Source of the DNA: an uncultured Bacteroidota bacterium
GTDB lineage: Bacteria > Bacteroidota > Bacteroidia > AKYH767-A > OLB10
NCBI GenBank assembly: GCA_900696575.1
Contig: CAADHD010000021.1
Location: 1 to 64,000, forward strand
DNA length: 64,000 nt
Reading direction: 5' to 3'
Made by a program: the position numbers and the translations under genes. Shown here one piece after another: positions 57,515 through 62,297 of this stretch. Position 1 is the first letter of the stretch. Every line of letters starts with the position of its first letter. Under the pieces are notes generated by a model, which worked only from the letters and a program-made list of their open reading frames with translations, made no database searches and was not told the DNA's origin.

Positions 57515-57526
57515 TTTCAAAAGAAA

Positions 57527-57546
57527 GAGGGGACTGCCGTCCCCTC
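57527..57546 (-). promoter_or_regulatory. Hairpin in the leader of rimP-nusA-infB
   Basis: GAGGGGAC (57527-57534) pairs perfectly with GTCCCCTC (57539-57546), eight base pairs and a four-base loop, between the -7 box and the rimP ATG. On the minus strand TTTCTTTTG follows, a T-rich but impure tail, ending 12 bases before ATG 57514. It could be an attenuator or mask the start region. Confidence 0.6.
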
Positions 57547-57565
57547 CAAAATTCCTTTACCGAGG

Positions 57566-57654: not shown

Positions 57655-59208
57655 TTATTGAAATAACGCTTTTTTAGTTTCATAGTCCATTCCATCCCTG
57701 TACCGGAACATATAAATGCCCTTAGCCAAACCGTCAACAGAAACAGTAAGGTTAGCTTGCTGCCCGGCTCTAAATAATAAATGGATGCAAACACGGAATG
57801 ATCTACAACGGCAGGGTTATTCGGAAATCCAGCCACATCCGTTCTTAAGTCTGTACGCACAGGCACCTGCCTCAAATCGCTGATGTTCTGGCAGCCGTTT
57901 TCAGGAGTGTAATCAGCCATCACTTCGGCTTCGGTAGGATACACTCCGCGAATGGTTTTAAAAGTGTAATAAGAAGGGAAGATGAGATTATCAGCCGTTA
58001 TATGTGCTTCGGAGGGGTTGTAAATTACTTTTTCATCGGGGTTGATATCAGTCATATCAATATTCTGATCAATATAATACTGGTGCTTTAATGTTAGTGA
58101 TCCATTGTTAGGGCCAGCCCCACGGTAAACAAATTGATTATTTTGAAAAATGTAACCAGTCAGTACATCTGCTTTATCCGGTCCGAATAAAATAGCTGAG
58201 ATAAGCGTATAAGTAGCAGGATAGGCAAATTCAAATGCGCGTTTTTTTTTGTTGATCTTCTTCGGCAAAAAGCGAAGAGGATGAATTGCAAAAGTTAGCC
58301 GGAAAATCCGATTTGACATGATTGCATGCCCCTACGGGAATTTCATCACAGGGGAAATAGGGTATTGTTCCACCAATATACCAGTCGCTGTTGCCGGTAT
58401 CGTTGTAATAAGTTTCGACAAAACTAAAAGCCGAACCGGGATAATTAGGGCGAATATGCAGAACAGGCCGCAACATTAAATCATGTTGGGCTGCATTTGA
58501 ATTGAAGTTATCCATGCGGAAAGGATACCAGCGGGTACGTCCGCGCGTTAGGTCATAATAAAAAGTAAAGGAAGAAATTACCTGATGGTTAATGCTGGTT
58601 CCGCAGTGCAGCCTAACGGTGTGTTTAAGAGCGGTATGAGGAAGAATCCTGCGGCTGATACCTGGTGCAAGAACAGGCCCGCCTTTGGTAAACACATTAC
58701 TTACCAAAGTTTGATGTAAAAGCGTTTGGCCATCTCCACCGGCATCCATCGGAATTACTTCTGTTCTGTTCTTCAGGTAGGTTAGCCATGTGTGATTATT
58801 GGCATCATAAGCGCTCCATGGCATAACGAGTGTCCGTTGAGTTGGTACAGGGGGAGGATTATTCGGATCATCGGCACAGCCATTGGTATTGGCAGCGCAG
58901 GGCGGAAGAAAAGGAAACGAAGCCGATTCAATGATCAAAGAGACAGCATGGTTGTTACGAATATCGGCATCGCGGTGCCAGAAATGGTCTTTCATGGATA
59001 TCTCATATTCACCAGAACAGCCGCCTATCAGGTCGTCTATATCATCAGGATGGAGGCTATATAAATAATTATTGGATGGAGCTCCTATAACTGGGTAGTT
59101 TTGCGGAGTCCCCAAATGTTCCATGTACGGGTTAATAAAATTTTGACTGATGGAAGACAGAGGGAAAAATGTCAGAACAAATAATAAAAGCAGAGTGAGT
59201 TTTCTCAT
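57655..59208 (-). pseudogene. Secreted protein gene with two compensating frameshifts
   Basis: ATG 59208 starts a signal peptide (MRKLTLLLLFVLTFFPLSSI). The frame breaks at an A9 run (58242-58250 on the minus strand): one A fewer joins FAEEDQQKK to RAFEFAYPATYTLI. The middle frame continues to YYLEPG near 57765, where one base appears missing in a CCGGG run. Adding it joins to QQANLTVSVDGLAKGIYMF and KKALFQ, stop at 57655-57657 in the original frame. That last part resembles the final half of a type A sorting domain. Corrected length is about 518 residues. The body has an imprint of a propeller-like or carbohydrate-binding secreted protein, not assigned. Either the gene is decaying, or both indels are sequence errors. 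Confidence 0.75.
58242..58250 (-). repeat. A9 (minus strand) homopolymer at the first frameshift
   Basis: Nine Ts on the plus strand, nine As on the coding strand, at the point where the reading frame changes. Eight would keep a single frame. An A9 tract in purM (23472-23480) is in frame. Confidence 0.9.
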
Positions 59209-59210
59209 AG

Positions 59211-60752
59211 TTAATTGATTTTACAAACTTTTATAACCTTTAGAAGTGATTTGTTTTTTGAATAAATGCTGATGAAATAAATACCCTGATTCAAATGAGC
59301 TAAATTCAACCAATCGCCTGAATATTTTATAGATTCTAACATTATTCCGGTCATATCATGAATAATTAGCTGATCAATAAATGTGTCATCAACATTAACA
59401 AGAGAAATATATTCAGTAAACGGGTTAGGGAAGATGTATATATCTGTTTTTTTTTCAGGTTGAACAACATTGGTTGCCGTTAGGCAAAGGAGTGAATCGA
59501 GTAGATTAAAGTTTAAAAAAAACATGCCGGATACGGAAGAATCAAAAGGAGTACAGGAGGCCTCACCTAATGCCAAGGGCAAAAAATCATCCGGAATGCT
59601 TACTTGCTGAAGAGGGTCGAAATTGTAATTATAGCAAAGCGGTGTAAATACGCTATCGGTTTTCGTTATTTGGATTAGAGAATTAGATCCGTTATTTCCA
59701 GTGAAAATCATGCTTTGATCAGGAAGAAGATTAATAGAGATGTTTCCGCCCCAGGCAAACCATAATATAGCATTCCCGTTAGCATCGGTCATTTTTGTTG
59801 TACCAATACCGGTAATAATGATTTTTCCGGTTTGTGTTTCTGCAAGGGCATAACACTTATCGGATAAGCCTCCTTGTATATATTGATTACAAAATATTTT
59901 ATTTCCGGCACTGTCAAATTGAAACAGAAGTTGCTTAAAAGGCGGCCACGAGCCGGTTCCGATAAAAGAGTTGGCATAGCCGCCAAAGGCATAGTTGCCG
60001 TTGCTGAGGGAAATGAGGCTTTGGAGATAATCGCCTTTAGCTCCTCCAAACTGTTTTGACCAGATGAGATTGCCGAGCGAGTCGGTGCGGAAAACGACAA
60101 TATCATAAATATCCACCATGTTACCGCCAACGATGAATCCTCCGTCATGGGTGGTTACCACAGAACGGGAGTAATAACCCGGATAACCGTTGCCGTACAG
60201 TTTACACCAAAGCACATTGCCGACAGAATCGGTGCGCATCAGGAAGATACGTCCTTCCTGCTGATTGTTTATATTATACCATCCTCCTGTTAATGTAAAC
60301 CCTTTATCTGGCAATTCAACAAAATCTGATGCAGCAAAACTGATTGTGTCAAAATAAACCCTGCTCCACAGTATATTACCGGCAGTGTCTGCTTTGAATA
60401 ATAATGAAGAGCTTCTATTAGTCGGAGGCGTACTCTCATATACTAAACCCAAAGTAAGAATATTATTGTCAGACAACTTTTTAATCTTCCTGCCTGATCT
60501 TGCCAAATCATTTGCCTTGCTCCAGAGTAAATTACCTGCTGAATCAAGTTTCATCAGCGTAAGCCAGTGGAAAGGATTGGTGTCCTTGTAAGTGCCAACT
60601 GTATAGATATTACCGGCATCATCCACGGTACTCGAAAAAGCTCCTTGATTGCTGCCGGGCGGCCCGTAAAAGGTACGGTTAAAAATTAACTGCCCATGTG
60701 AAATGAAAGGGCTTGTTAAAATAAGTAACAGCAAAACCCTCTTCATGCTCAT
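59211..60752 (-). CDS. T9SS-sorted repeat protein (DSAGNLLWSK-type repeats)
   Basis: A 513-residue secreted protein beginning MSMKRVLLLLILTSP with an evident signal peptide. The body consists of blades with the motif DSAGNLLWSK, DTAGNILWSR, DSVGNVLWCK and DSLGNLIWSK, spaced about 50 residues apart, each preceded by a GGxx(I/V) stretch; it looks like a propeller. The C-terminus is a type A sorting domain (IYIFPNPFTEY, IIHDMTGIML, NQGIYFISIYSKN). The ATG overlaps the stop of the upstream gene by four bases, and the frameshifted gene follows two bases after its stop, so the three are one transcription unit. Confidence 0.88.
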   Translation of the reverse strand: MSMKRVLLLLILTSPFISHGQLIFNRTFYGPPGSNQGAFSSTVDDAGNIYTVGTYKDTNPFHWLTLMKLDSAGNLLWSKANDLARSGRKIKKLSDNNILTLGLVYESTPPTNRSSSLLFKADTAGNILWSRVYFDTISFAASDFVELPDKGFTLTGGWYNINNQQEGRIFLMRTDSVGNVLWCKLYGNGYPGYYSRSVVTTHDGGFIVGGNMVDIYDIVVFRTDSLGNLIWSKQFGGAKGDYLQSLISLSNGNYAFGGYANSFIGTGSWPPFKQLLFQFDSAGNKIFCNQYIQGGLSDKCYALAETQTGKIIITGIGTTKMTDANGNAILWFAWGGNISINLLPDQSMIFTGNNGSNSLIQITKTDSVFTPLCYNYNFDPLQQVSIPDDFLPLALGEASCTPFDSSVSGMFFLNFNLLDSLLCLTATNVVQPEKKTDIYIFPNPFTEYISLVNVDDTFIDQLIIHDMTGIMLESIKYSGDWLNLAHLNQGIYFISIYSKNKSLLKVIKVCKIN

Positions 60753-62265
60753 TTTCTTTCTTCCAATTCTTCAATCCGTTGTTCAAGCTGCAGGATGTAG
60801 AGGTAAAGTTTTTCGAGGTGTTCCTGCTGTAGTTTCTGAATTTCGCCAAGGGGCTGCCCTTCGGTTTCTATTTCAGCAGCGGGTTTCATGCCGGGCAGGT
60901 GTTTATGCTTTTTCATGAAACGGCCGGCTTCTTTCAGCGTCATCATTTTGTAATCCGAATCAAATACATAATCAGGCCATGCTCCTGTTGCACGTACATA
61001 CACCTCGCGTACGCCTACTTTGCCATCAACTGTCAATTTATATCCTGCCTGCGGTTCTATGCCAATTCCAATCTTTCCGTCATTCATTATTTTCATTACA
61101 GATTGCATAAGGGCATCAATGTCATCGTCTGGATTTCCTCCGGCAGGACAAGCCGTGAATTCAACATCTCCATTCAAATGGAAATGTAAAGCTGAAACCG
61201 CATCAGTGGATATTCTTTTTCTTACACCATCCCAATAAGAGTTGTAGGAAATCACTTTTGAACCTCCGCTGTGAAATGTAAAGCGCGTACCGATTTCGAG
61301 AAATTCATGCGGTTCGTCATTACCAATTCCCACCCTGTCAGTACAGGTATAAATAGCTGATGGATTTGATGTTTTATGCCGCCATGCGTTCAAAGCAAAA
61401 GGATCGTTACAAGTAAGTCCCGGTTTGGCAACTTCCAAAAATGAGATTGGTTGAATTTGAAAAAAGCCATTACTATCAGCAAAAAGTAATTTATTTCCAT
61501 TACCGGAGAATGAATTGATTTTGAAAAATCCATCTGCCCCAATCCTCAGCCTTTCCTCCGCATTAGTTTTTACAACCAAATCCTGTTCATCTGATGTACC
61601 GATAAAATCAGTTACAGGGTTGCTGCCCGCATTGCCGGTCATCGTCCAGTCATCGCGGGGAGGTTCGCTTATATGTTTTACATTTTCCTGCATACAGCCA
61701 TTGGCATCTGTAACCTGAACTAAATATTCCATGGCACACAGATTCGTTACCGTTTGCAGATTGCTTCCGTTTAGTTGTTCCCAATAATATGAATAAGGTT
61801 CAACTCCACCGGTGGGATTAACAGCTATCCATCCGTTACATGCTCCGCTGAGGCTTATATTGTATTCGCGGCCATTCACGTGATATGAACTAAAAGTAAG
61901 ATTTACGCGGAGCGCTTCCGGTTCAGTCAGTGTTATTTCTGCCGAAACCGGTGTACTTTCCGGAGAAGCATCGGTAACTTCTGCTCTGTAATAACCCGAA
62001 GCAAGGCCGCTAAGGTCTTCAACAGTATCGCGTGTGCTCCATGAAATACGGTATGGCGGTATGCCGCCTGTAATAGTTAAATCAATAACTCCATCCCTGC
62101 CTCCAAAGCAACTGATGTTATAGCCGTTGTAATCGGAAGCGGTAAGTTGGAGCGAGAGGTTTTGTGCATTGGAAGGCATGATGCACAGGATAAATAGAGA
62201 ATTAAGAATTAAACTTTTGAATGCATGAGCATGCGGGGGGGGGTAACCGGATTTTGCTTTTTCAT
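60749..62265 (-). CDS. SprB-repeat, tail-fibre-like surface protein; start out of frame at a C9 tract
   Basis: The clean open frame is 60749-62179 (476 residues) starting at ATG 62179, but that start has no signal peptide. Upstream in the same frame lies FKSLILNSLFILCIM-PSNAQ, a good signal-peptide core and cleavage site. The best start, ATG 62265 (MKKQNPVT), reaches it only if the C9 run at 62235-62243 had seven or ten Cs. The mature part has two SprB-type repeats (GGIPPYRISWS; GGVEPYSYYWEQ), a TSDEQDLVVKTNAEERLRIG segment seen in Bacteroidota tail-fibre-like proteins, and a C-terminal KHKHLPGM region plus coiled coil. There is no sorting domain. It is first of a three-gene unit. Confidence 0.75.
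62235..62243 (-). repeat. C9 tract (G9 on plus) at the start of the SprB-repeat gene
   Basis: Nine identical bases in the 5' coding region, ten codons from ATG 62265. As sequenced, translation from 62265 stops after 19 codons at TAA 62209-62211. Tract lengths of 7 or 10 open the whole gene. This is a typical contingency tract. Confidence 0.85.
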
Positions 62266-62289: not shown

Positions 62290-62297
62290 TAAAGATA
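62290..62297 (-). promoter_or_regulatory. -7 box for the SprB-repeat gene unit
   Basis: The minus strand reads TATCTTTA (one mismatch to TAnnTTTG), 24 bases before ATG 62265, with TTTG further upstream at a 22-base spacing. It supports 62265 as the true start. Confidence 0.5.

Follow-up and report, generated by a model that had tools for sequence, protein, structure and literature searches.

A run of nine cytosines lies just behind the start codon of a gene for a secreted protein with SprB repeats. With a probability of about 0.85, this run is a contingency tract that places the putative surface protein under slipped-strand phase variation. The proposal was made in a preliminary description of the DNA, and it is now supported by the recurrence of the layout at other genes, by tract lengths in all three frames and by purifying selection on the on-frame.

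Organization of the tract and the genes behind it

The genome examined is a 2.87 Mb draft in 35 contigs. The tract gene is located on contig C21, in a window (the whole stretch of DNA analysed) of 64,000 nucleotides. On the minus strand, the elements follow each other in a fixed order: the promoter-like box TATCTTTA, ATG 62265, nineteen bases, the C9 run, which starts 22 bases after the ATG, and the HAHAFKSLILNSLFILCIMPSNAQ-coding stretch. The features of the unit are as follows.

62290..62297, minus strand: -7-like promoter box TATCTTTA, about 25 bases 5' of the ATG (sequence)
62263..62265, minus strand: start codon ATG, at an identical position relative to the tract in relatives (sequence)
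62235..62243, minus strand: C9 run, probable contingency tract; the on-frame needs 7 or 10 Cs (sequence)
62209..62265, minus strand: off-state reading frame, 18 residues and a stop (translation of the assembled sequence)
62165..62265, minus strand: leader and signal peptide, on-frame MKKQNPVTPP(P)HAHAFKSLILNSLFILCIMPSNA, cleavage before Q judged by eye
60749..62265, minus strand: gene 1, secreted protein, two matches to the SprB repeat, coiled-coil-like C-terminal end (Pfam, paralogue)
59211..60752, minus strand: gene 2, with a T9SS type A sorting domain, overlapping gene 1 by ATGA (domain match)
57655..59208, minus strand: gene 3, secreted-protein gene with a T9SS-tail-like end and two frameshifts (sequence)
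58242..58250, minus strand: A9 run, site of the first gene 3 frameshift (sequence)
57526..57547, minus strand: terminator-like hairpin after gene 3, likely the end of the unit (consensus match only)

As assembled, ATG 62265 is off-frame and reads MKKQNPVTPPRMLMHSKV*, ending after 18 residues. With one C more or two fewer, the same codon leads into MKKQNPVTPP(P)HAHAFKSLILNSLFILCIMPSNAQ... and continues for about 505 residues. The tract thus lies inside the coding region, and its length sets the reading frame. In the on-frame, the upstream stop TAA 62281-62279 is followed by no ATG, GTG or TTG until ATG 62179, which is inside the signal peptide. The Bacteroidota -7 consensus is TAnnTTTG, and relatives carry TATATTTAC at a distance comparable to that of the -7-like box. 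The run, the two readings of the start codon, the lack of an alternative start and the upstream box had all been reported in the preliminary description, and each is present in the sequence.

In a profile search, gene 1 matches Pfam SprB in two stretches (E=2e-16), and its paralogue on contig C20 is 56% identical. SprB repeats also characterize the gliding adhesin SprB of Flavobacterium johnsoniae, a very large many-repeat protein, but gene 1 encodes about 470 mature residues with two SprB matches. By sequence, its product shares the repeat of SprB and not the architecture, and it is not filed as SprB. A C-terminal T9SS type A sorting domain gives no match in gene 1; gene 2 has one. The signal peptide and the SprB repeats suggest a surface location and an adhesin role for the gene 1 product. 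An AlphaFold model of the mature protein from a 5-row alignment reached a mean pLDDT of 35, was uninformative and was discarded.

The 4-base overlap between genes 1 and 2 and the 2-base gap before gene 3 were correctly described before; the two frame breaks in gene 3 went unmentioned. The first coincides with the A9 run and the second is an indel near 57757, after which the final frame ends in a T9SS-like tail (ANLTVSVDGLAKGIYMFRYRDG...). Because gene 3 is broken in the assembly, the "whole unit" that would come under switching is effectively genes 1 and 2. T9SS cargo is abundant in this genome, with at least 150 sorting-domain matches. The breaks in gene 3, at 58242-58250 and near 57757, may reflect decay, error or a second switch.

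Recurrence of the layout in the genome and in Bacteroidota

The C9 run as such is not significant, since 17 of 100 dinucleotide-preserving shuffles of the window (17%) contain one. The case for it rests on placement and recurrence. The whole genome holds only seven C or G runs of at least 8 bases, and three of them (contigs C15, C21 and C35) start 19-31 bases past an ATG on the coding strand, out of frame with an open reading frame that has a signal-peptide-like N terminus. The related sites in the same genome are listed here.

Contig C35, 127077: C10 tract, needs 9 or 12; 1,040-codon open frame with a weak T9SS-tail match
Contig C15, 51218: C8 tract, needs 7 or 10; signal-peptide-like open reading frame
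Contig C20, paralogue of gene 1 (56% identical): C6 tract at the equivalent position, out of frame
Contig C18, 7722-7926 (locus L443): decayed leader relic, with ATA for ATG and the tract gone

Four secreted-protein genes of this genome therefore have the layout (C9, C10, C8 and C6), all of them out of frame. Secreted or T9SS genes follow closely behind the tract genes of contigs C35 and C15.

Within the order, tracts stand at the start of gene 1 family members in G019 (three genes, with C11, C10 and C7), G003 (C11), G016 (C8 and C9) and G012 (C13). Relatives in G010, G018, G005 and G035 have no tract, and an ordinary signal peptide directly follows the ATG. Within a single protein family, the tract has therefore been gained or lost. 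The preliminary description had named alignment of orthologous loci as a check, and the outcome favours its reading: the arrangement of ATG, tract and signal peptide recurs in the paralogue (C6), in relatives within the order (C7 to C13) and at secreted genes unrelated to gene 1, and the tract lengths cover all three frames.

An ATG with a nearby C-run was searched for in 24 family, 42 order and 395 class genomes and in one named collection. Raw counts of "ATGA...C8" in the order (about 47, vs 39 for the reversed pattern) were unconvincing, and after ATGAA, G-runs were almost as frequent as C-runs. Because the raw counts only mildly exceed the reversed pattern, a reading-frame and signal-peptide test was applied, and this test alone separates C from G. 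For a site to pass, one frame of the three, and no more than one, must be long and begin at the tract, with a hydrophobic core near its start. In the class-level set, the test is passed by 28 of 96 C sites, vs 2 of 69 G sites in a mirrored search (Fisher p=4e-6). Across all fetched loci together, 79 C-tracts of 8-16 bases pass vs 3 G-tracts; this set is partly pattern-selected, so that the class-level figures are the fair comparison. Cultured isolates with the layout include Pontibacter, Fibrella aquatilis, Algoriphagus aestuariicola, Phaeodactylibacter xiamenensis, Patiriisocius marinus and Planktosalinus lacus.

Selection and frame states

Gene 1 and its paralogue give a dN/dS of 0.19, although both are off in the assembly, and ten other pairs give 0.07-0.32; the values are rough because several pairs have a high or saturated dS. 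Purifying selection keeps the on-frame functional. This conservation in two copies that are both off, the intact state of genes 1 and 2 over about 500 codons each and the recurrence of the layout at dozens of intact genes make it improbable that gene 1 is a recent pseudogene whose run drifted out of frame in a decaying unit, even though the two frameshifts in gene 3, the leader relic on contig C18 and the off state of all four own tracts would suit that explanation.

Of the 79 loci, 21 are on; adding one C would restore the frame in 22, and adding two or removing one would do so in 36. The share of on states is not significantly different from one third (p=0.23). In an early set of about 16 loci the off states had seemed to be in excess, but the full set of 79 shows no significant excess. 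Related copies differ in tract length, with on and off lengths both represented (21 on, 58 off). One set of flanks, 85-91% identical downstream of the tract, carries C16 and C14 (KatS3mg027) and C12 (SKW94). The three Pontibacter orthologues were rejected as a case of tract-length change: all have C9, and their frames differ via flanking bases.

Constitutive expression would put every locus in the on state, a programmed shift would give a single off-class, and genes that had died would no longer keep the frame. The on-frame is, on the contrary, conserved. The frame classes thereby bear on programmed slippage, in which the ribosome or RNA polymerase shifts frame and a constant low level of protein is made from unchanged DNA. 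Slippage of both enzymes on a C-run is conceivable, and off states outnumber on states by 58 to 21, but one direction would be expected. Both off frames are common (22 and 36), on states occur and the on-fraction is indistinguishable from one third, which leaves this explanation very little likelihood. An error of consensus or assembly in the tract length, with gene 1 simply on, is likewise highly improbable. Homopolymers are error-prone and the genome is a draft of 35 contigs, but an error could shift the length by one and would leave unexplained why dozens of secreted genes, in records of varied origin that include cultured isolates, have a long C-run behind the ATG.

Slipped-strand phase variation fits these findings better than a pseudogene, an error or a programmed frameshift in one direction. 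Some observations count against a switch. All four own-genome tracts are off, C9 lies towards the lower length limit for rapid slippage in known systems, and the broken gene 3 could mean that the unit is decaying.

Proposed switching mechanism

In the proposed mechanism, slippage of DNA polymerase on the C-run would add or remove single Cs. At 7 or 10 Cs the gene would be on, and ribosomes starting at ATG 62265 would read through the signal peptide and make the SprB-repeat surface protein. In the off state, with 8 or 9 Cs, translation would end early, no protein would be exported and display would presumably be lost, though expression may be leaky. The overlap of genes 1 and 2 suggests a polar effect, by which translation of the T9SS-cargo gene 2 probably falls in the off state. 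Sister cells would then differ at random in displaying the SprB-repeat protein. The gene 1 tract would then count among several switches of the kind in this genome and among many in Bacteroidota.

Apparent exchange of leaders

The genes on contigs C20 and C15 share 75% identity in a stretch of about 300 bp that runs from about 150 bases 5' of the ATG to the cleavage site. Past the cleavage site the two are unrelated, and the mature part of the contig C20 gene is 79% identical to that of contig C21. Behind the leader relic on contig C18, no secreted-protein gene was seen. A genome of a different family (G042) contains a pair of genes with 72%-identical leaders and no downstream similarity. These comparisons suggest that leaders and mature proteins are exchanged and that the leader is portable. 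In G012, a tract operon of about 6 kb on contig C26 (locus L424) sits between two genes that are direct neighbours in the sister genome G005 (contig C1, locus L426), so the unit there behaves as an optional islet.

A broader hypothesis, to which we give even odds, is a so far undescribed, phylum-wide system of phase variation in Bacteroidota. A portable leader composed of promoter, ATG, poly-C and signal peptide would be copied before unrelated operons that are secreted or T9SS-dependent, giving mostly environmental bacteria a combinatorial random surface.

Comparison with known phase-variable systems

In Neisseria, pilC has a poly-G tract in the signal-peptide region and opa has CTCTT repeats in the signal-peptide region. 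The gene 1 tract would be analogous to both, in that repeats right at the 5' end of a surface-protein gene set its frame and, with it, translation. It differs in belonging to Bacteroidota, in being a coding-strand poly-C before, not inside, the hydrophobic core, in preceding unrelated proteins and in that switching here is proposed from sequence. In phase-variable genes of Campylobacter and Helicobacter, G/C homopolymers of about 8-16 bases can switch coding frames (PMC8355987, PMC2823697). The tracts described here are similar in length and likewise lie in coding frames, but they are no more than about 31 bases from the ATG of secreted-protein genes and strongly favour C over G.

Phase variation in Bacteroidota is known mainly via DNA inversion. 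For Bacteroides, the relevant passages located in a 2025 review describe inversion systems or unspecified shifts only (PMC11868660). The invertible promoters and invertases covered there also make surface structures phase-variable within this phylum, by recombinase-driven DNA inversion, whereas homopolymer slippage would act here. Homopolymeric tracts have been presented as a general regulatory mechanism, biased to the starts of coding genes (PMC2831843). The 5' bias described in that paper concerns poly-A/T of 5-9 bases, as opposed to long poly-C on secreted genes here, and a text search of the paper returned no mention of Bacteroidetes. A search of the open-access literature found no report of poly-C slippage switches in Bacteroidota. 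The mechanism is classical; what seems new is the occurrence in another phylum, the constrained position before the signal peptide, the strong bias of C over G and the seemingly portable leader.

If the tracts switch, many Bacteroidota, mostly uncultured and several free-living, also possess pathogen-style slippage switches on surface and secreted proteins. This would have a bearing on phage resistance, attachment and cell-to-cell heterogeneity. Since the tract genes are out of frame in most assemblies, annotation may overlook them or get them wrong.

Further tract loci

Secreted or T9SS genes also stand close behind the tract genes on contig C34 of G019 and contig C26 of G012. In the former (locus L423, 6515-13379), the tract gene leads a run of genes with T9SS tails, including one for a GH5 cellulase-like protein. 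The run also has tandem near-copies of a 540-residue protein with a weak beta-propeller repeat match.

In Bacteroidia bacterium KatS3mg027 (BPGX01000012.1), the C16 tract (locus L250, ~6380) and the C14 tract (locus L288, ~3732) are preceded by a pair of start codons that overlap in different frames (ATGTATGAAA), so that translation could be on at two out of three tract lengths.

A few of the loci fall outside Bacteroidota. In Candidatus Gastranaerophilales Lapin-020__bin67 (loci L262, L264 and L280), three paralogous pilin-like genes (GFTLAEVLITLVIIGVIAAI) each start with ATGAAAAGGCGCTTA-C9 and are out of frame, so that a poly-C switch may also act on type IV pilin-like genes beyond the phylum.
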